A stretch of DNA of 64,000 nt from Asticcacaulis solisilvae (GTDB taxonomy: Bacteria > Pseudomonadota > Alphaproteobacteria > Caulobacterales > Caulobacteraceae), in contig NZ_JAGGMI010000001.1 of assembly GCF_017875235.1 (NCBI RefSeq), positions 62,001 through 126,000 of the forward strand, given 5' to 3'. Of the stretch, positions 1,970-51,790 are shown in pieces. Below the pieces are notes generated by a model. That model was not told the DNA's origin. It made no database searches and saw only the letters and a list, made by a program, of their open reading frames with translations. The translations under genes and the position numbers were made by a program. Numbering within the stretch: position 1 is the first letter of the stretch; each line of letters begins with the position of its first letter.

Positions 1970-2002
1970 CCTCTGGCCAAAACCTCTGGCCAAAACCTCT
2001 GG
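1970..2002. repeat. Short tandem repeat, 13-bp unit, about 2.5 copies
   Basis: The unit CCTCTGGCCAAAA occurs at 1970-1982 and 1983-1995, followed by a partial CCTCTGG at 1996-2002. It sits just upstream of the small membrane protein at 2035, in the region that would hold that gene's promoter. Confidence 0.85.
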
Positions 2003-7122: not shown

Positions 7123-7999
7123 CGGGCTTGCGGAACAGACTGCGCGGATCGAAGCCGGTGATCAATGCTGTGCCCACCAGCACGACGGCGCCGCCGAGCA
7201 CGGTCTGGACGCCGATATGCTCGTGCAGGAACAGGCTGCCCCACAGGACGCCGAAGACCGGGATCAGGAAACCGACGCTGAGCGCGGGGCCAACGCCAAC
7301 CTTCTCTATCAGGTCGAAATAAAGCAGATAGGCCAGGCCGCTACATAAAATACCGACCCCCAGGACGGCGAAGATCACAAGCATGGACGGCATATGCACC
7401 GGCGGATAAGCGGGCGCCACAGGCAGGATAAACAGCACCGCCGCCCACAGGCTGCCGTGCGCATTGGAAAATCCGTCGACGCTCCTGGCCTGCTTGGCAT
7501 AGGCCGACGCCAGGCCGTAGCACAGGGCGGCGAGCAGTCCCGCCCCAACAGCCAGTCCGGCGGCGGGCGTCAGATTGCCGGTATCAAGTCCGACCAGAAT
7601 GGCCACCCCCAGCACACCCAGCGCCAGGCCGGCACCGGACTTCCAGGTAAAGGCGGTGCGCAGCCACACAGCCGAAATGACCATGCCGAAAATCGGCGCC
7701 GTCGAATTGAGGATCGACAGCAGCGAAGCCGGCAGGGTCTGCGCGGCGTAGGCAAACAGTATGAAGGGGAAGGCCGTATTGAGAAAGCCGAGGATAAGGA
7801 AGTGCTTCCAGTGCGCACGGATATCCAGGCTTCGGCGCTGAATGAGCGCCACGCCCAAAAGAAAGACCGCGCCAAGTGTCAGCCGCGCTGTCACGACCGC
7901 CACCGGCCCAAGCACGGGCGCGGCAATGCGCAGGAACAGAAACGATGCGCCCCAGATGGCGGCGAGCAGAAGCAGCTTTATGACGTTCGCGGCAGACAT
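7112..7999 (-). CDS. DMT-superfamily transporter (EamA/RhaT type)
   Basis: A 295-residue inner-membrane protein with about ten hydrophobic segments in two repeated halves of five, the EamA duplication. Recognisable stretches are AAIWGASFLFLRI at the N-terminus, NSTAPIFGM at the end of the first half, and LSVGFLIPVFGVLWG in the second. Members export amino acids or other small metabolites or act as drug transporters; the substrate here is unknown. GGAGG precedes the ATG at good distance. Confidence 0.88.
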   Translation of the reverse strand: MSAANVIKLLLLAAIWGASFLFLRIAAPVLGPVAVVTARLTLGAVFLLGVALIQRRSLDIRAHWKHFLILGFLNTAFPFILFAYAAQTLPASLLSILNSTAPIFGMVISAVWLRTAFTWKSGAGLALGVLGVAILVGLDTGNLTPAAGLAVGAGLLAALCYGLASAYAKQARSVDGFSNAHGSLWAAVLFILPVAPAYPPVHMPSMLVIFAVLGVGILCSGLAYLLYFDLIEKVGVGPALSVGFLIPVFGVLWGSLFLHEHIGVQTVLGGAVVLVGTALITGFDPRSLFRKPVTA

Positions 8000-8104
8000 G
8001 ACGACCTCCTGTGGCCGTCATATGGCACCGCTATCCAGGTCTGTCGCTCCGGTTCTTGCGGTTTGTCACAATGGTTACGAAGTCTGGCGGGAAATCGCTC
8101 CCGG

Positions 8105-43901: not shown

Positions 43902-46073
43902 CTAAGCAGCGAGTTGCTCTTTGACTCTTTCAGCAAGAGTTTTGATGTCCAACGGCTTCGGCAGGAATGAGACGTTCTTTTCCTCTTCCAGCAGATCCGA
44001 GAATTCCGATTCGGCATAACCCGAGATGAACATGACCGGCACATTGCCGATCAGCGGCCGGGCGCGCTTCAGCATCGACGGACCGTCGAGGCCGGGCATG
44101 ATGACGTCAGAAATCAGCAGGTCAAAACGCCCGCCCTCGGCCTCGATGATCTCAAGCGCCTGTTCGCCGTCCTCGGCCTCCAGCACCTCGTAGCCGCGCT
44201 GGCGCAGCAGGTGGGCAGCGATGCCGCGTACGATCTGCTCGTCCTCGACGAACAGGATGCGGCCGACGCCCGACAGGTCCTTCGGCACCGGCTTGGCTTC
44301 GGCCACGGGCTTGGGCGCCGCCAGTTCCTTTTCGGTCTCGATCCAGACGGGTAAGAAGATGCGGAAGGTCGCGCCCTGCCCCATCTTCGAATCGATCAGG
44401 ATATGGCCACCGGCCTGGTTGATGATGCCATGCACGGTCGACAGGCCAAGCCCCGTGCCCTCGCCCAGCGGCTTGGTGGTGAAGAACGGCTCGAAGACCT
44501 GCGAAATGATTTCCGGTGGGATCCCTGGACCGGTATCGCTGACTTCGATCAGGGCGGCGCCTTGTGCCGGCGCTTCGGGCCAGCCGCGCGCCTTGGCTTC
44601 CGCCTGGCTGAGCGGTGCCGTGCGGATCATGACCTTGCCGCCCCCTTGGGCGCGCATGGCGTCGCGGGCGTTGACGACCAGGTTCATCATGACCATTTCC
44701 ATCTGCCCCTTGTCGACATGGACATTGGGCAGGTTCCGGCCGTATTCGGTCTCCAGCTTCACGTCTTCACGCACCAACCGGCGCAACAGAACTTCGGCTT
44801 CGGAGACCATCTCACCGACATTGAGCGTCACGCGCTTGACCGTCTGCTTGCGCGCAAAGGCCAGCAGGTTGCGCACCAGGTCTTCGGCGCGGGCGATGAT
44901 CTGGCGAATGCCGTTCAGGTCCTCATAGGACGGATCGCCGAGGGGGTGGTTGAGCAGCAGCTGGTCGTTGCGAAACTTGAAGCCGGTCAGGAGGTTGTTG
45001 AAGTCGTGCGCCATGCCGCCCGCGACTTGGCCGATGGCCTGCATCTTCTGCGACTGGATGAGCGTGGTCTCCAGCTTCTTCTGTTCGGAGACGTCGAAGA
45101 GATAGAGCGTGAATCCACCGGCTACCGGCGAGACATAAATCTGGATCGGACGATCGGCCTTGGTGCGCAGTGAAATGTCGAACGGCCCGGTCTTGCCGCC
45201 ATCGCGACTGACAGCCAGGCGCTCGATCAGGTCGGCGCGCGAATTGTCGTGGACCAGTTCGCCGAACGTCCGCCCGGCCAGCGTGTCGGGGTTCTGCTCG
45301 GTCAATTGCGCGAAGACGCGGTTGAATTCGCTGATGTGGGCAGAAAAGACGTCGTCGCCCATGACCAAGGCGGCGCCGAATGGCGCGGCTTCGGCAAACG
45401 TGTCGAGCTTGGCTTCGGCCAGCGGCTCTGGCGGCGTTTCCGGTTGCGGGTTGGACTGCGGCGCATCGCCGGCGACCCGGCCTTCGTGCTTCAGCATGAC
45501 GCCCTGGCCCAGCACGCCTTGCGATCCGGCGCGCACCAGCACCAGGTCTTCGCCCAGACGCGACACGACCATTTCGAAATCAAAGCCGCCCAGCTTGACG
45601 AGGGCGCGGCCCATGCCATTGGCCTTGGCTTCGCGCATGGCGACGAAGAGCGACGGCGCCTCATCACCCTGCGGCAGGCGTTTCGCCCCCCCGCCGGCCT
45701 CGGTCCAGGCAGCGTTGGCGGCGACGATATGACCATCATAGCCCGCGACCGCAGCGGCTTCTTCAAGGGAGCCGACGAGATCGGCGGCGCGAAAACCTTC
45801 ATTGGTCAGGATTTCGGTGTCGCTGGAAAAGGTGAACATGCTGAGGAAGATGACGACCGCGAAGGTCATCAGGAAGATGGCCAGCAGCAGCCCGGCCGGC
45901 AGGTGACCGGCGACCAGCCACACGGCGATGCAGGCAAAGACCACGACGGCCGACACAATGCTCAGTGTCCAGACATTTACCGCCTCGCGGAAGCGCGCCA
46001 CGGTAAAGCGGTCACGCCAGCTGGGAGATGCGACCTCGGGCTGGTCGGCAGGGTTCATCGGTCGTGCGGACAA
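43902..46073 (-). CDS. cckA: Hybrid histidine kinase CckA
   Basis: A 723-residue bifunctional kinase/phosphatase that feeds phosphate through ChpT to CtrA and CpdR and so sets the cell-cycle state. Two N-terminal transmembrane segments (about residues 35-80), two PAS regions, the HisKA motif GGMAHDFNN near residue 354, the ATPase domain with GTGLGLSTVHG, and a C-terminal receiver with LLISDVIMPGLDG near residue 654. The start is TTG at 46073, supported by GAGG eight bases before it; ATG at 46058 lacks such a site. It lies directly behind flhB, as in Caulobacter. Confidence 0.95.
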   Translation of the reverse strand: MSARPMNPADQPEVASPSWRDRFTVARFREAVNVWTLSIVSAVVVFACIAVWLVAGHLPAGLLLAIFLMTFAVVIFLSMFTFSSDTEILTNEGFRAADLVGSLEEAAAVAGYDGHIVAANAAWTEAGGGAKRLPQGDEAPSLFVAMREAKANGMGRALVKLGGFDFEMVVSRLGEDLVLVRAGSQGVLGQGVMLKHEGRVAGDAPQSNPQPETPPEPLAEAKLDTFAEAAPFGAALVMGDDVFSAHISEFNRVFAQLTEQNPDTLAGRTFGELVHDNSRADLIERLAVSRDGGKTGPFDISLRTKADRPIQIYVSPVAGGFTLYLFDVSEQKKLETTLIQSQKMQAIGQVAGGMAHDFNNLLTGFKFRNDQLLLNHPLGDPSYEDLNGIRQIIARAEDLVRNLLAFARKQTVKRVTLNVGEMVSEAEVLLRRLVREDVKLETEYGRNLPNVHVDKGQMEMVMMNLVVNARDAMRAQGGGKVMIRTAPLSQAEAKARGWPEAPAQGAALIEVSDTGPGIPPEIISQVFEPFFTTKPLGEGTGLGLSTVHGIINQAGGHILIDSKMGQGATFRIFLPVWIETEKELAAPKPVAEAKPVPKDLSGVGRILFVEDEQIVRGIAAHLLRQRGYEVLEAEDGEQALEIIEAEGGRFDLLISDVIMPGLDGPSMLKRARPLIGNVPVMFISGYAESEFSDLLEEEKNVSFLPKPLDIKTLAERVKEQLAA

Positions 46074-46160
46074 AACGGTTACCTCACGGTACAGGGACGC
46101 GGCGAATCACGGATGAGTTTAGCGCATTTGGAGAATTCGCGCGCGTCAAGAAAGGTTGCC

Positions 46161-47237
46161 TTAAAAACCTCTGCGCTTGCGGGTCAGAACGAAGCTGATC
46201 AGCCTGGCGACCGCGGCGAAATGTTCTTCCGGAATGACCTCGTCGATATCGATGGCGGCATAAAGCGCGCGCGCCAGGGGCGGATCTTCGACGATCGGCA
46301 CCTCATGCTTGCCGGCCTCTTCCCGGATTTTCAGGGCCAGCGCGTCGACGCCCTTGGCGACGCAGACGGGCGCGGCGGTTTCACCGGCCTCGTAGCGCAG
46401 GGCGACGGCGTAGTGGGTCGGGTTGGTGACGACCACGGTGGCGGTGGCGACATTCGCCATCATGCGGCGGCGGCCTTTTTCCATGCGCAGTTGACGCAGC
46501 TTGGCCTTGATGTGCGGGTCGCCTTCGGTTTGCTTGTATTCTTCCTTCTGCTCTTCCTTCGACATCTTCATTTTCTGCATGAAGCGGAAACGTTGCAGCA
46601 TGTAGTCGGCGCCGCCGCCGACGAACAGAAAGATGCAGACCGAGATGGCCAGGACCAGCAGGATGTCGCGGCAGTAGGGCAGGATCAGCGCCGGCGACAC
46701 ATGCGTCAGGCTGACAATGCCATTCAGCCGGTCCTTGAGGACATTCCAGACGATGATGCCGGTGACGATCAGCTTAAGCAGGGTTTTGCCGAACTGGATG
46801 AGGGCGTCGGGCCCGAACAGTTTTCCCAGTCCCGCGATCGGGTTGAGGACGGCGAAGTTGGGCTTCAGCTTTGACGGCGTGAACATGAAGCCCGTCTGCA
46901 TGACATTGCCGGCGACACCCAGGAACAGGGCGCCGCTCATGACCAGGATCAGGACCGGCAACACGCTCATCAGCAGATCGCGGAAGATGGTCATGCCACC
47001 GTCGCCGTCCATCGAGTTCAGCAGCTGTTCCGGATGCGCTATGAAGGGCAGCAGGTCGCGCGCCAGGTCCATGCAGATGGACGGTCCGGCAAAGGCCAGG
47101 ACACCCACCGCACCGATGAGCGACATGGCCTGCGGCAGGTCCTGCGACTTTGCAACGTCACCCTTCTCCCGCGCCTGCTGGAGTTTTCGGGCCGAGGCCT
47201 CTTCGGTCTTGTCCTCCTGATCGCCACCCTCAGCCAT
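46161..47237 (-). CDS. flhB: Flagellar export switch protein FlhB
   Basis: A 358-residue export-gate protein. It has four transmembrane segments and the cytoplasmic domain with the self-cleavage motif NPTH (about residue 274) that switches secretion from rod-hook to filament substrates. The start ATG forms the end of a 17-bp duplication, and the AGGAGG eight bases upstream (47251-47246, minus strand) lies within inserted repeat DNA, so its translation signal seems to have been supplied by the insert. It is followed by cckA after 87 bases. Confidence 0.96.
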   Translation of the reverse strand: MAEGGDQEDKTEEASARKLQQAREKGDVAKSQDLPQAMSLIGAVGVLAFAGPSICMDLARDLLPFIAHPEQLLNSMDGDGGMTIFRDLLMSVLPVLILVMSGALFLGVAGNVMQTGFMFTPSKLKPNFAVLNPIAGLGKLFGPDALIQFGKTLLKLIVTGIIVWNVLKDRLNGIVSLTHVSPALILPYCRDILLVLAISVCIFLFVGGGADYMLQRFRFMQKMKMSKEEQKEEYKQTEGDPHIKAKLRQLRMEKGRRRMMANVATATVVVTNPTHYAVALRYEAGETAAPVCVAKGVDALALKIREEAGKHEVPIVEDPPLARALYAAIDIDEVIPEEHFAAVARLISFVLTRKRRGF

Positions 47238-47379
47238 GTTTCAGGCCTCCTGTGGCGATCAGGCAAGGCCAAGCGGCCGTCGCTGCGGGCGCGCTCAAGG
47301 AGCAGAGCGTTAGCGCATCGCCCAATGCAGCGAGCCCGTGCGGCGCCTGAGCACAAATATGTTCGCCACCCTCAGCCAT
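47221..47379. repeat. Inserted repeat element between fliR and flhB with 17-bp direct repeats
   Basis: TCGCCACCCTCAGCCAT occurs at 47221-47237 and 47363-47379. The first copy is the flhB start, the second contains the fliR stop. Between them are 125 bases, of which 47262-47357 is a 96-bp core found again at 50581-50676 with 86 identical positions. The core has internal stems (CGCTGC...GCAGCG, GCGCT...AGCGC). Confidence 0.9.
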
Positions 47380-48205
47380 TTCCGTTCCTTATGAAGACAG
47401 CGAGGAAATCCTGGTAGTGCTCGATGAAGAGCATGCCGATGGCGCCAAGGCTGAGCGCCATCAGCGCTAGGCCCAGCAGGACACTGAGAGGGGTGGCGGC
47501 GAAGAAGACCGGAAAGTTCGGCATCATGCGGCCGACAAAGCCGACCGCGATGTTGAAGATCAGGCCGAAGGCGAGCAGCGGCGCCGCCATCTGCATGGCC
47601 AGTACGAAGCTGCGCGAAACCGTCTGGACCATGAGGGTCACCGCGTCGCCGACCATCACCGATTTGGTGGCCGGGAAGACGGTGAAGGAATCGACCATGG
47701 CCCGGATGAACAGGTGGTGCAGGTTGGTCGCATAGATCAGCACCAGGCCGAGCATGGCCATGAAGGTGCCGAGGCTGGTCGACGGCTGCGCCTGGGCCGG
47801 GTTGGCGGTCTGGGCGAAGGATAGGGTCGTCTGCAACGACATGATTTCTCCGGTGGTGACCATGGCGTACATGAGCACGCGCATCAGGGTTCCCAGCATC
47901 AGGCCGATAATGACTTCGTGCAGGACCTGGCCCGTCATGCCGCCTAGGGTCAGCGGCATGGGCGGCAGGGTATGGCGCACGATCGGCGTCACAACGACGG
48001 CCAGTACCAGCGCGAAGCTCAGGCGGTAACGCGGCGGCACGGCCTGGTCACCGACGCCCGGCATCAGCATGATCAGGCTGGACAGCCTGATGAAGATCAA
48101 TCCGACGGCCCACAGCTCGGCGGAGGTGCCAAACATGGACGTGAGCTCGCTGCCCGGCGTGGCCGCCAGGGGTGCCAGGCGCAGCGGAGGCGCCGCCAAC
48201 AGCAT
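47372..48205 (-). CDS. fliR: Flagellar export gate protein FliR
   Basis: A 277-residue membrane protein of the export gate (FliPQR spiral). Six hydrophobic segments; LSSLIMLMPGVGDQAVPP at the start is the usual FliR signature. The stop TGA lies inside the duplicated 17-mer at the insert border; before insertion it would have overlapped the flhB start by eight bases. The start used, at 48205, is one base after the fliQ stop; ATG at 48136 is more like homologues and cannot be excluded. Confidence 0.93.
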   Translation of the reverse strand: MLLAAPPLRLAPLAATPGSELTSMFGTSAELWAVGLIFIRLSSLIMLMPGVGDQAVPPRYRLSFALVLAVVVTPIVRHTLPPMPLTLGGMTGQVLHEVIIGLMLGTLMRVLMYAMVTTGEIMSLQTTLSFAQTANPAQAQPSTSLGTFMAMLGLVLIYATNLHHLFIRAMVDSFTVFPATKSVMVGDAVTLMVQTVSRSFVLAMQMAAPLLAFGLIFNIAVGFVGRMMPNFPVFFAATPLSVLLGLALMALSLGAIGMLFIEHYQDFLAVFIRNGNG

Positions 48206-48206
48206 C

Positions 48207-48470
48207 TTACATGCTCGCGATGCGGTTCATGACCTGGTGCATGAAGCTCGACAACAGGGCCCCCATCATGGGCAGGAAGAGCAGCAGGGCAACGAAGATG
48301 GCAATGATCTTCGGGGCGTAGATAAGGGTCTGTTCCTGGATCTGGGTCAGGGCCTGGAACAGGCCGATCGCCACCCCGACAACGAGGCCTACCAGAAGGA
48401 TCGGCGTGCACAGCTGGATCGTCAGCCAGATTGCATCGCGTCCAAAAGCCAGAACCTCGCCACCGTTCAT
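48207..48470 (-). CDS. fliQ: Flagellar export gate protein FliQ
   Basis: An 87-residue protein with two long hydrophobic helices, the standard FliQ. QLCTPILLVGLVVGVAIGLF and LTQIQEQTLIYAPK are family signatures. It ends one base before fliR, suggesting coupled translation. Upstream is a 360-base gap with repeats, in place of the direct link to fliE. Confidence 0.95.
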   Translation of the reverse strand: MNGGEVLAFGRDAIWLTIQLCTPILLVGLVVGVAIGLFQALTQIQEQTLIYAPKIIAIFVALLLFLPMMGALLSSFMHQVMNRIASM

Positions 48471-48642
48471 CGTTACTACCCTGGTCTACGCACCCGGCAA
48501 AACTTGCCGGGCATACCCTGCGGAAATTGCCCTGTGCACGGTTAATAGCGCATTAAGGATGGAGAGATTCTTTGTAGGAGGCGAGTGGGATATCAGGCGG
48601 CCTTCCCCCTTCCGTCATCATCGGCCAAAGGCCTCGATGCCA

Positions 48643-48664
48643 CCTTCCCCGTGAACGGGGAAGG
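48643..48664. repeat. Short perfect palindrome in the fliQ-fliE gap
   Basis: CCTTCCCCGT-ga-ACGGGGAAGG. The 360-base gap 48471-48830 between fliQ and fliE holds this hairpin and the 121-bp palindrome to its right; I see no gene in it. Confidence 0.85.
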
Positions 48665-48713
48665 AAAAGTCCCGGACGGGCCCGCGCCCAAGATGGATTG
48701 AATAACTTGGGAG

Positions 48714-48834
48714 CTAGGCCGTGATGCTGAGTCGAAAACCGTGATTGCATGAGCACCCGCAGCGACGTGTACTTAGGTACACGAGCAAGGGCGCGGAAGA
48801 CGATTGCGGTTTGCAGACCAGCAGCGTGGCCTAG
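48714..48834. repeat. Long imperfect palindrome (121 bp) ending in the fliE stop codon
   Basis: The ends CTAGGCC and GGCCTAG and the centre CGTGTAC-ttag-GTACACG are perfectly paired; the arms in between pair partially (for example AAACCG / CGGTTT). It contains one GANTC methylation site (GAGTC at 48729-48733). Its right end CTAG includes the TAG stop of fliE. Long intergenic repeats with GANTC sites have been described in Caulobacter; whether this is a member needs a search. Confidence 0.85.
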
Positions 48835-49139
48835 ATGGGCATGCGCATGATTTCCTGGTAGGCCGAGATCACCTGATCGCGGATGGCGATGACGCTTTGC
48901 AACTGCGTCTCGGCCGAAGCGACGGCGGTGACGGCGTCGATCAGCTCGACCCGGCCTGACTGCTGGCCAGCCATCATGGTTTCGGCGCCTTGCGTCGCCT
49001 TGTAGGTCTGCTCCAGGGCGCCCTGCAGCATCTTGCCGAAGTCCGGACCTTGCGCAGCTTGCGCCCCGTCATCACTGATGGCGGCGGCCTGTTGCTTGAT
49101 GGCGGCGCCATAGGCGCGGGCGGCGATCAGGGCATCCAT
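48831..49139 (-). CDS. fliE: Flagellar hook-basal body protein FliE
   Basis: A 102-residue protein that joins the MS ring to the rod. The C-terminal helix (VELIDAVTAVASAETQLQSV ... SAYQEIMRMPI) is diagnostic. Its stop codon belongs to the palindromic repeat on the left, so the extreme C-terminus may have been set by the insertion; MRMPI is nevertheless the usual FliE ending. It follows flgC after eleven bases. Confidence 0.94.
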   Translation of the reverse strand: MDALIAARAYGAAIKQQAAAISDDGAQAAQGPDFGKMLQGALEQTYKATQGAETMMAGQQSGRVELIDAVTAVASAETQLQSVIAIRDQVISAYQEIMRMPI

Positions 49140-49150
49140 GGTTTAATCTC

Positions 49151-49570
49151 TTACTGCTGGAGGATGTCGAGCGTCTTGGTTTTCATGGCGCGCGCCGTGT
49201 CGATGACGTTGAGGTTGGCCTCATAGGCGCGCTGCGCTTCGCGCATGTCCATGGTTTCGATCAGCGAATTGACATTCGGCTTCTTGACGTAGCCTTCCGC
49301 GTCGGCCGCGGGGTGGGCGGGATCGTATTCCATGGTGAATTCGGACGTGTCCGGAACGACCTGGGCCAGCTTGACGCCGGTTGCGCCATCGATCGGCGCC
49401 GCGGTGAAGACCGGCTGCTGGCGGCGATAGGGATCCCCGCCCTTCACGCGGCTGGTCGAATCCGAATTGGCGATGTTTTCCGCGATGATACGCATCCGTG
49501 CCTGCTGCGCCTTCAGCGCCGAGGCCGCGACCGCCATGGTCTGATCGGAATGAATAACCGGCTTTACCAT
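49151..49570 (-). CDS. flgC: Flagellar proximal rod protein FlgC
   Basis: A 139-residue rod protein. N-terminal axial helix SALKAQQARMRIIAENIANS, followed by the asparagine-rich turn, and the C-terminal helix MREAQRAYEANLNVIDTARA. Assembled through the export gate between FliE/FlgB and FlgG. It forms the middle of the flgB-flgC-fliE operon. Confidence 0.95.
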   Translation of the reverse strand: MVKPVIHSDQTMAVAASALKAQQARMRIIAENIANSDSTSRVKGGDPYRRQQPVFTAAPIDGATGVKLAQVVPDTSEFTMEYDPAHPAADAEGYVKKPNVNSLIETMDMREAQRAYEANLNVIDTARAMKTKTLDILQQ

Positions 49571-49604
49571 TTGATACTCCTACTTGCCATCGTCTTTCAG
49601 GGAG

Positions 49605-50018
49605 TTACCGTCCCGGGGGCCTCGCCGCCATGCGCACCATGGCCAGCGACTTCTGATAAAAACCGACCGCCGCGTCGAACTGCATGCGGCTTTCGGCCAT
49701 CTTCAGCATCTGTTCCTCGAGCACCACGGAATTGCCGTCCATGGTGGTTTCCGAGTCGAGCGCCGTCACTTCGCGCGCTGAATTAGGCTTGAAGCCTTCG
49801 ATCTGCAGGTGCGCGGCATTGGTCGTCGCCATGCCGAGCTTCCCGCCCCCCTCCGCCTGCCCCTTCATCAGGGTGTCGAAGTTCTGCGCGGCCAGGTCGC
49901 GCGGCTTGTAGCCGGGCGTGGAGGCGTTGGCGACGTTTTCCGCCACCAGCTTCTGCCGCCCGCTCAGCCAGCCCATGCGGGTCTGCAGCGCGTCGAGGAA
50001 GTTTATGCCCGAAGCCAT
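49605..50018 (-). CDS. flgB: Flagellar proximal rod protein FlgB
   Basis: A 137-residue rod protein. The start at 50018 (MASGINFLDALQTRM) agrees with homologues; the frame runs 120 bases further upstream into the shared promoter region. Axial N-terminal motif LSGRQKLVAENVANASTPGY and C-terminal DAAVGFYQKSLAMVRMA. First gene of the operon flgB-flgC-fliE, divergent from fliO. Confidence 0.95.
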   Translation of the reverse strand: MASGINFLDALQTRMGWLSGRQKLVAENVANASTPGYKPRDLAAQNFDTLMKGQAEGGGKLGMATTNAAHLQIEGFKPNSAREVTALDSETTMDGNSVVLEEQMLKMAESRMQFDAAVGFYQKSLAMVRMAARPPGR

Positions 50019-50104
50019 GACCGGCCCTTTCCTTTTTGCGATTGCCCGACTCACTCTACAAGGGACAATTCGCCTGTATGGGGCAAATAATGCCCACCTT
50101 TTGG

Positions 50105-50151
50105 TTAACAAAGGCTTGCCGGTAAACGGCCCGTTAACCAAGAGGCTTAAC
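50105..50151. promoter_or_regulatory. Cluster of CtrA-type half sites between flgB and fliO
   Basis: TTAAC occurs at 50105, 50134 and 50147. TAAA-N7-TTAA at 50123-50137 is one mismatch from the CtrA box TTAA-N7-TTAA. The position between divergent class II flagellar operons fits CtrA control known from Caulobacter. Confidence 0.5.
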
Positions 50152-50180
50152 TATGCAATGGAAACAGGTTCGGTGGCGTG

Positions 50181-50546
50181 ATGGACTGGATGGGATTACT
50201 GCGTGCGATCTTCGCCCTGGCCATTGTGCTGGGCCTGATCCTGTCGCTTGCCTGGGTCCTGAGACGGTATGCCCCACAGCTGATGGCGCGTCTTCAGGCG
50301 CCGCGCGGCCGCCGGCGCCTTCAGGTCGTCGAGACCCTGGTGCTCGACCCTGCCCGCCGGCTGGTGCTGGTCCGGCTCGATGACGAGGAAAGACTGCTGC
50401 TGCTCGGGGACGGCCGCGAACTGATCGAGCCGCGCACCAGGCCGGCTTCACAGTCGCCCGTTGCGGAGCCCATTGCCGAAGCGCCCCGCGCCCGTCCCTC
50501 GCCTCGCCCCCTCAAGAGACAGGACGCCAATGACGACCTGTTCTGA
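50181..50546 (+). CDS. fliO: Flagellar biosynthesis protein FliO
   Basis: A 121-residue protein: a single membrane helix (about residues 7-27), then the FliO cytoplasmic domain (RRRLQVVETLVLDPARRLVLV, LLLLGDGREL) and a Pro- and Arg-rich tail. FliO is a chaperone for FliP. The ATG at 50181 is preferred over the GTG one codon earlier. The gene overlaps the start of fliP by 17 bases. Confidence 0.9.
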   Translation: MDWMGLLRAIFALAIVLGLILSLAWVLRRYAPQLMARLQAPRGRRRLQVVETLVLDPARRLVLVRLDDEERLLLLGDGRELIEPRTRPASQSPVAEPIAEAPRARPSPRPLKRQDANDDLF

Positions 50547-51444
50547 GAAAGCCGCGTCCACTCCGAAGCCGATAGGCTCCGGCAAGGCCGACCGGCCGTC
50601 GCTGCAAGCGCGCTCAAGCAGCGAAGCGTTAGCGCATGACCAAATGCAGCGAGCCCGTGCGGCGCCTGAGCACAAAAAAAGTAACCTGAAACAGAACCTG
50701 ATCATCCTGGCGGTCTTCGTCGTCGGGTTCGCCATGATGATTTTTCCGTATCAGGTCTTCGCGCAGGAACTGAACGTCAATCTCGGCAACGGCGGCAGCC
50801 TGTCGGCGCGAGTCGTCCAGATGATCGGGCTGATGACGGTGCTGTCGCTGGCGCCGTCGATCGTCATCATGTCGACCTCGTTCATCCGCATTGTCGTCGT
50901 GCTGTCGCTGCTGCGGACCGCGCTCGGCCTGCAGCAGAGCCCGCCAAACGCGGTCATCATTTCGCTGGCCCTGTTTCTGTCGGCCATCGTCATGGCGCCG
51001 ACCTATGAGCGCGCCTACAACGAAGGCATCCGGCCCCTGATGGACCAGGAGATGGAATTGCCGCAGGCCTTCGAAGCGTCCAGCATCCCGCTGAAGGGCT
51101 TCATGCTGGGCCAGGTCGACCAGAAGGACCTCGGCCTGTTCGTCCGCCTGTCCAAGATTGAGATGCCGAAGGACCAGATGGACCTGCCAGTGCGCGTGGT
51201 CACGCCGGCCTTCATGATTTCCGAACTTAAAAAAGCCTTCCAGATCGGCTTCTATCTCTTCGTTCCCTTCCTGGTGATCGACCTTGTGGTCGCCAGCGTC
51301 CTGATGAGCATGGGTATGATGATGTTGCCGCCGGTTGTGGTATCATTGCCGTTCAAGCTGATCTTCTTCGTGCTGGTCGATGGCTGGCACCTGGTCGCGG
51401 GTTCCCTGGTCGAAAGTTTCCGGCCACCGATCGGAGGGGGGTAA
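50530..51444 (+). CDS. fliP: Flagellar export gate protein FliP with repeat-derived N-terminal extension
   Basis: A 304-residue reading with the FliP membrane core (LAPSIVIMSTSFIRIVVVLS, LFLSAIVMAPTYE, LPFKLIFFVLVDGWHLV) and a signal-like segment from about residue 55. The start at 50530 follows AGGA and overlaps fliO. Residues 18-49 are encoded by a 96-bp repeat (50581-50676) and have no counterpart in normal FliP. The ATG inside the repeat at 50644 would give a 266-residue protein of usual length. Either the extension is removed with the signal peptide, or the internal ATG is used. Confidence 0.9.
   Translation: MTTCSEKAASTPKPIGSGKADRPSLQARSSSEALAHDQMQRARAAPEHKKSNLKQNLIILAVFVVGFAMMIFPYQVFAQELNVNLGNGGSLSARVVQMIGLMTVLSLAPSIVIMSTSFIRIVVVLSLLRTALGLQQSPPNAVIISLALFLSAIVMAPTYERAYNEGIRPLMDQEMELPQAFEASSIPLKGFMLGQVDQKDLGLFVRLSKIEMPKDQMDLPVRVVTPAFMISELKKAFQIGFYLFVPFLVIDLVVASVLMSMGMMMLPPVVVSLPFKLIFFVLVDGWHLVAGSLVESFRPPIGGG
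50581..50676. repeat. Second copy of the 96-bp repeat, inside the start of fliP
   Basis: It matches 47262-47357 at 86 of 96 positions and is kept in frame with fliP, without stop codons. Relative to its host gene it is in the opposite orientation to the copy near flhB. No flanking duplication of comparable length is seen. Confidence 0.9.
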
Positions 51445-51448
51445 CGGC

Positions 51449-51790
51449 ATGGATGCGTTTCTGAAACCCCTGTTCGACAAGAACGAGCAAGGCGTCATCT
51501 TTTACCCCATGGGCAACAAGGCCCGGCCCCATCCGGTCAATCCATCACAGGTCGAACAGCTGCGCACCGCGACGGCCGTGACGGTGGTCATTGTCGGGCT
51601 GATGGCGGTCGGCGGCTTTTCCTACGCCATCGGTGTGACCCTACTGATATTGATAACACCCGGCGGGATAGAGGGTTTCACCTTCGATCCCCGGCTGCTG
51701 TATCTCGGCGACGTCGTGCAACTGATCTTCATCGCCATCGTCATCCTGATCTACCGCGCCGTGGTCGAAGGGATCCTGCGAAGGCCTTAG
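51449..51790 (+). CDS. Small membrane protein behind fliP
   Basis: A 113-residue protein with two hydrophobic segments (about residues 42-72 and 82-106) and a polar N-terminus. GGAGG at 51433-51437 lies eleven bases before ATG 51449, four bases after the fliP stop, so it belongs to the fliO-fliP operon. No family is recognised. Its position suggests a role near the export apparatus or simple co-transcription. Confidence 0.65.
   Translation: MDAFLKPLFDKNEQGVIFYPMGNKARPHPVNPSQVEQLRTATAVTVVIVGLMAVGGFSYAIGVTLLILITPGGIEGFTFDPRLLYLGDVVQLIFIAIVILIYRAVVEGILRRP

Follow-up and report, generated by a model that had tools for sequence, protein, structure and literature searches.

Judged by the available parts of their published descriptions, the closest kinds of repeat to the one analysed here appear to be YPAL/RU-2 and the Rickettsia palindromic elements (RPE). 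YPAL/RU-2 elements are enterobacterial, about 168 bp long and credited, in the section of PMC2229807 that covers them, with target duplications of variable length (3-26 bp), dyad-symmetry targets and both empty and filled sites. Compared with that partial account, the present core element is likewise small and palindromic, with duplications of variable length (at 12 of 91 Asticcacaulis loci among the matches listed) and sites with and without it, but it differs in its 26-35-nt core, its longer duplications that include gene ends, its tandem arrays and its occurrence in Alphaproteobacteria. RPE (about 105-150 bp) are described in excerpts of PMC2229807 and PMC10969869 as palindromic repeats lying in frame within protein genes, and their target duplication is listed as unknown in the same excerpt of PMC2229807. 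The likeness to RPE, as far as these excerpts go, is one case of an in-frame element in a conserved protein gene (the 99-nt copy in FliP), whereas the far shorter core and the junction duplications that leave both neighbours whole set the two apart.

Two further families share single traits with the core element. REP elements are intergenic hairpins of 20-40 nt in the available portion of PMC3733652, and the core element resembles them, on that account, as a small hairpin scattered between genes; it is unlike REP/RAYT in its gene-end duplications. Membership of the REP/RAYT system was rejected since Y1_Tnp, the RAYT-type transposase domain, was absent from nine of the 11 core carriers searched (G000, G002, G005, G006, G008, G013, G022, G028 and G084) and present in two (G009 and G020). 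One core variant holds, by eye, a GTAG inside its stem, GTAG/CGTC being the tags of REPs. Erythrobacter cryptus carries the core, and the REP counts given for this species in the accessible part of the survey PMC12306157 may include the core hairpin. CIR, the CcrM-associated repeats of Caulobacter and other Alphaproteobacteria, are in the partial descriptions available about 110 bp long, contain GANTC and are strictly intergenic; the core element is, like these as so described, a small alphaproteobacterial repeat. Identity with CIR was rejected, as neither the 125-nt insert nor the second window copy contains GANTC and one copy is intragenic. A search of Rfam over positions 46000-51500 (E up to 1) gave just one hit, at 48071-48138 with E 0.73, which lies in neither element copy. 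Literature searches of titles and the openings of abstracts, with subscription papers mostly outside their scope, retrieved no paper on the core element, including with the 26-mer GCGCTACCGCTTCGCTGCTTGAGCGC as the search term.

The window, which is the whole 64-kb stretch of Asticcacaulis solisilvae DNA that was analysed, contains fliR (47372..48205, minus strand; Pfam Bac_export_1) followed by flhB (46161..47237, minus strand; Pfam Bac_export_2), with Pfam support at the locus for FlhB, FliR-type, FliP and FliO proteins. The 17-mer ATGGCTGAGGGTGGCGA is present twice on the minus strand of this junction, with starts 142 nt apart: the downstream copy (47221..47237) is the intact flhB start, and the upstream copy (47363..47379) is a relic flhB start that contains the fliR stop TGA (47374-47372; ATGGCTGA). 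The claim of the earlier note that the flhB-start 17-mer is duplicated at the fliR end, with 125 nt between, was thereby confirmed, both copies being exact. Exact 17-mers recurring within 300 nt of each other occur at two places in the window, this junction and 1970/1983; window positions 1970-2002 form a short tandem repeat with a 13-nt period. The genome also has a second, divergent FlhB (35%) and FliP (38%), encoded at G000:C14:2510-3535 and 7371-8096.

The 125-nt insert separating the two 17-mers (47238..47362, minus strand, as are all features within it) holds the 99-nt long form of the element (47259..47357), which has 89% identity to 50578-50676, and within it the 26-nt hairpin core in the variant GCGCTAACGCTCTGCTCCTTGAGCGC (47291..47316). 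It is followed by CCTGATCGCCAC (47252..47263), an inverted copy of flhB 5' sequence that pairs with 47216-47227, and by the ribosome-binding site AGGAGG (47246..47251), noted earlier as supplied by the insert, which lies 8 nt ahead of the flhB ATG. The order at the junction is thus relic flhB start, element, inverted flhB 5' copy, short spacer and intact flhB. The perfect 12-bp inverted repeat encloses the flhB start and the ribosome site in its 24-nt loop, and the predicted fold of this hairpin has a z of -4.56. A mini-ORF of 49 codons (47230..47379) runs from the relic ATG across the element, and its TGA overlaps the flhB ATG (ATGGCTGA). The 17/17 identity of the two copies fits a recent event.

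A single strong match to the insert exists in the rest of the genome, the second long copy of the window (50578..50676, minus strand; 26-nt core at 50610..50635, minus strand). Read on the plus strand, this copy supplies 33 in-frame codons to the N-terminus of FliP (50530..51444, plus strand; Pfam FliP), in which 55 aa lie ahead of a residue preceded by 25 aa in the relative G014. The overlap of the fliP start (ATG 50530) with the fliO stop (50544-50546) is still present, as in G014, G018, G021 and others. The 96-bp repeat core postulated earlier holds in so far as it is found elsewhere (89% over 99 nt), but what is widespread is a shorter unit, a core of 26 nt that reaches about 35 nt when its T run is counted. 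Inspection by eye showed the long form (96-99 nt) in G009, G014, G016 and this genome only, and a 44-letter pattern of the long form had no match in the named genomes. Flanking direct repeats, which the earlier note had proposed to look for at further copies, did not exceed their shuffles at any of the five other long copies in this genome (L091, L092, L094, L097 and L098).

Of 61 genomes, 59 yielded an FlhB, and fliR/flhB junctions were compared at 30 loci (the window's own, 24 of the same genus and five of the family), a tight junction being defined as an overlap or at most 3 nt from the fliR stop to the flhB start. Tight junctions are present in 19 of the 24 same-genus relatives. The earlier note had reasoned that removing the insert and one 17-mer copy restores an 8-nt overlap, and exactly this overlap exists, as ATGGCTGA or GTGGCTGA, in three of the 19 (G018, G020 and G021), and also in G026 of the family. 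The junction is spaced in the remaining five, by other repeats in G014, G006, G007 and G009 and by a 66-nt spacer in G024; none of these junctions contains the core, the best core match having 7 to 10 mismatches. Spaced junctions in relatives without the core had been named in the earlier note as evidence against its reading, and that outcome was partly found, so spacing alone cannot identify the core element. The occupation of this junction by other repeats also indicates that small repeats have landed here repeatedly. The nearest relative by FlhB, G014 (75%), keeps ATGGCTGAGG after the fliR stop and then has a hairpin repeat of another kind, and the set includes no empty site from a close relative of the window's species. 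A second class of repeats, larger GC-rich hairpins (ctcccc...gggg type), also occupies tight junctions between genes in the genus, being present before flhB at L032, L038, L039 and L040 and after hisD at L313, L314, L315, L322 and L329.

The core has the consensus GCGCTAMCGCTTCGCTBCTTGAGCGC and lies in both window copies. This genome contains 12 matches to the degenerate core at up to three mismatches, one of which (C2:432449) is probably a chance match, and the 99-nt copy used as query has matches in 25 of 25 genus genomes (E up to 0.01). At up to two mismatches the core was found in 37 of 149 family genomes, against none for a reversed-pattern control: these are all 23 sampled genus genomes, the window's own included, and 14 other family genomes, two of which, G028 and G084, belong to a second genus and have 30 and 33 copies. 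Exact cores occur, among the matches listed, in Asticcacaulis, Erythrobacter, Qipengyuania, Altererythrobacter, Methyloceanibacter, Salipiger, Sulfitobacter and Robiginitomaculum. The distribution beyond the genus is patchy. A function conserved across the class was rejected, as the core is present in just three of 192 evenly drawn class genomes, with the window's own counted among these.

Among the matches listed, 249 core instances had enough flanking sequence, of which 213 remained after removal of near-identical flanks and 151 after removal of tandem instances, giving 91 non-redundant loci in Asticcacaulis and 60 in others. A duplication was called where a copy of upstream sequence begins 0-5 nt after the core with a score of at least 9, and the expectation was taken from permuted flanks. 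A duplicated neighbouring gene end was found at 12 of the 91 Asticcacaulis loci against 0.36 expected and no such duplication at the other 79, while the 60 loci outside the genus gave none at score 11 and one at score 9 against 1.2 expected, all among the matches listed. Decay may be a cause of the missing duplications. One side of the duplication joins at the core end; at the window, the distances between duplication and core are larger (43 and 53 nt) because this locus is the long form. Exact inverted arms of at least 6 nt surround the element at 18 of the 91 loci against 3.1 expected, and at six of the 60 non-Asticcacaulis loci against 1.0, again among the matches listed; four of the 18 longer arms are part of larger GC hairpins that house the core, and arms of at least 5 nt are present at only six of the 12 duplication loci. 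The clear order of relic, element, inverted copy, spacer and intact copy is restricted, among start-type loci, to the window and L068, as the inverted matches of 4-7 nt at L061, L081, L122 and L155 are not convincing.

A borderline direct repeat is present at L095 (G000:C5:300174-300199), which adjoins the downstream end of what we take to be a fliG-like gene. The region directly upstream of the neighbouring gene, presumably fliH-like and assigned to no family by Pfam, contains the core in this genome (L095), in G020 and in G012 (L068 and L349). In G020 the gene-start duplication upstream of this gene is identical over 42/42 nt, and many other relatives have different hairpin repeats at this position.

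Sites with and without the element occur at two further loci. Between the histidinol dehydrogenase gene hisD and the aminotransferase gene hisC, 18 of 23 junctions compared are coreless, five of these 18 with other hairpin repeats, and the carriers (G001, G005, G013, G020 and, decayed, G010) share the layout hisD end, spacer, core and relic hisD end. The DUF418 gene has a simple end beside a convergent gene and no element in G010, and a core with a relic end in G001, G005, G006 (with a longer core loop), G009, G015 and G019. Together with the tight junctions of relatives and the like architecture at other core loci, these sites uphold the earlier idea of an insertion with local duplication into a once-overlapping junction. 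The present fliR/flhB arrangement in the window probably arose when the two genes still overlapped and a small mobile hairpin, itself non-coding, entered the overlap and duplicated the junction, leaving a mini-ORF that could hand over to flhB.

At hisD and the DUF418 gene, the intact and relic copies often differ, mostly by synonymous changes, and one copy resembles other lineages. These differences would be compatible with an import from such lineages or with an exchange between the two copies. Homologous recombination could accordingly have replaced a native gene end with a foreign end plus element, the native end persisting as the relic. This import remains an unlikely origin overall, as the copies are identical over 17 nt at the window and over 42 nt at both L068 and L122, and it leaves the joint at the core end unexplained. 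At L331 of G010, the two hisD tails, intact and relic, appear to have changed places compared with G005 and G001, which suggests recombination between copies.

The element could also be a regulatory part, such as a terminator or translation switch, kept for its function and not as a selfish repeat. A T run precedes the core at 73 of the 91 Asticcacaulis loci and at 30 of the 60 non-Asticcacaulis loci, among the matches listed, and at Asticcacaulis loci this agrees with a terminator-like role, as does, for translation, the hairpin predicted round the flhB start. Such a role is doubtful as the reason for the insertions, because whether a given junction carries the element varies erratically from one relative to the next, and repeats of unrelated kinds are found in those junctions too. 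Stem changes in 237 cores affect both sides or one side of the pair in 9 and 5 cases at pair 3-24 and in 2 and 2 at pair 2-25, against 0 and 4 at pair 1-26 and 0 and 2 at pair 4-23, a mixed picture, with compensation at two of the four outer pairs, that counts against the favoured insertion of a hairpin element.

Tandem arrays of the element exist, and units of gene end, T run and core are repeated two to three times in tandem at L142, L286, L073, L140 and L159. These arrays, and the apparent exchange of the two hisD tail copies between G005 and G010, would agree with an element that had been in place beforehand and never moved in, the junction there having been duplicated in tandem through replication slippage or unequal crossing-over; this is improbable, as most of the single duplication loci have one core and not two, and coreless relatives have a simple junction. 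Least probable is an ordinary MITE, with a transposase acting on the repeat ends and making a target duplication fixed at the 17 bp named in the earlier note: the window repeat is flanked by direct repeats and the core-rich G009 and G020 possess Y1 transposases, but the short duplication of fixed size that defines MITEs is contradicted by lengths of 17 nt at the window, 21-54 nt at other single insertions and more in tandem units, one side is joined at the core end, and a search that covered only Y1_Tnp found none in most of the carriers searched, this genome included.

Insertion of the hairpin with duplication of the junction, the favoured origin, has a counterpart in the reading frames, a point that goes beyond the earlier note. 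Gene-start duplications were found at the window and at L061, L068, L071, L081, L122 and L155, L061 and L071 being the same gene. At all seven loci the frame opened by the relic start continues across the element and ends beside the intact start, the first stop lying -16 to +5 nt from it, and the relic ORF stop overlaps the intact ATG at four of the seven. The relic start at L081 is an in-frame upstream ATG picked by the analyst, the direct repeat beginning further in. Random frames in core loci satisfied stop-position limits of -16 to +6, chosen after the seven values were known, in 428 of 4530 trials (9.4%). Of the 13 gene-end rows, 12 were analysed and L159 was left out. In all five hisD carriers (about three lineages), an ATG 0-2 nt past the hisD stop opens a frame that crosses the core and continues in the relic tail of hisD, while the seven other gene-end duplications have no ATG near the intact stop that opens the relic frame; L158 is open from the stop with its first start just a TTG at +45, and L073 has a GTG at +34.

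At the fliR/flhB junction, the 26-nt palindromic core in its 99-nt long form would have entered the overlap in a recent ancestor, in an event that would also have copied the junction itself. With the junction duplicated, fliR retains its stop and flhB its start, and flhB would have acquired a strong ribosome site. As the mini-ORF spans the element and its stop falls on the flhB ATG, ribosomes ending fliR could pass through it to flhB and, in crossing it, would melt the 12-bp hairpin round the flhB start. The mini-ORF may thus be translated and couple fliR to flhB. Going by the reading frames, operon insertions may survive where the junction is duplicated and the frame is left open, selection having kept these.

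As a hypothesis, a hairpin-primed template switch is suggested for the event by the way one side joins at the core end and by the inverted copies present at some loci. On a tentative and broader interpretation, which we consider rather unlikely as a whole, a coding-free hairpin without a RAYT would spread by such template switching at replication forks and persist in operons. Its footprint would be a direct target copy, the element and sometimes an inverted copy; two of the three frames would be open in both orientations, and duplicated starts would become short coupled leader ORFs.

Mobilisation of small hairpin repeats by transposases was, in the available part of a 2007 review, a hypothesis without experimental support (PMC2229807). 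The core family, in which both occupied and empty sites occur and the joint at the core end is constant, gives concrete predictions on how small hairpins move. It also offers a route by which a gene overlap in an operon can be undone without losing either gene, and possibly without losing their translational coupling.
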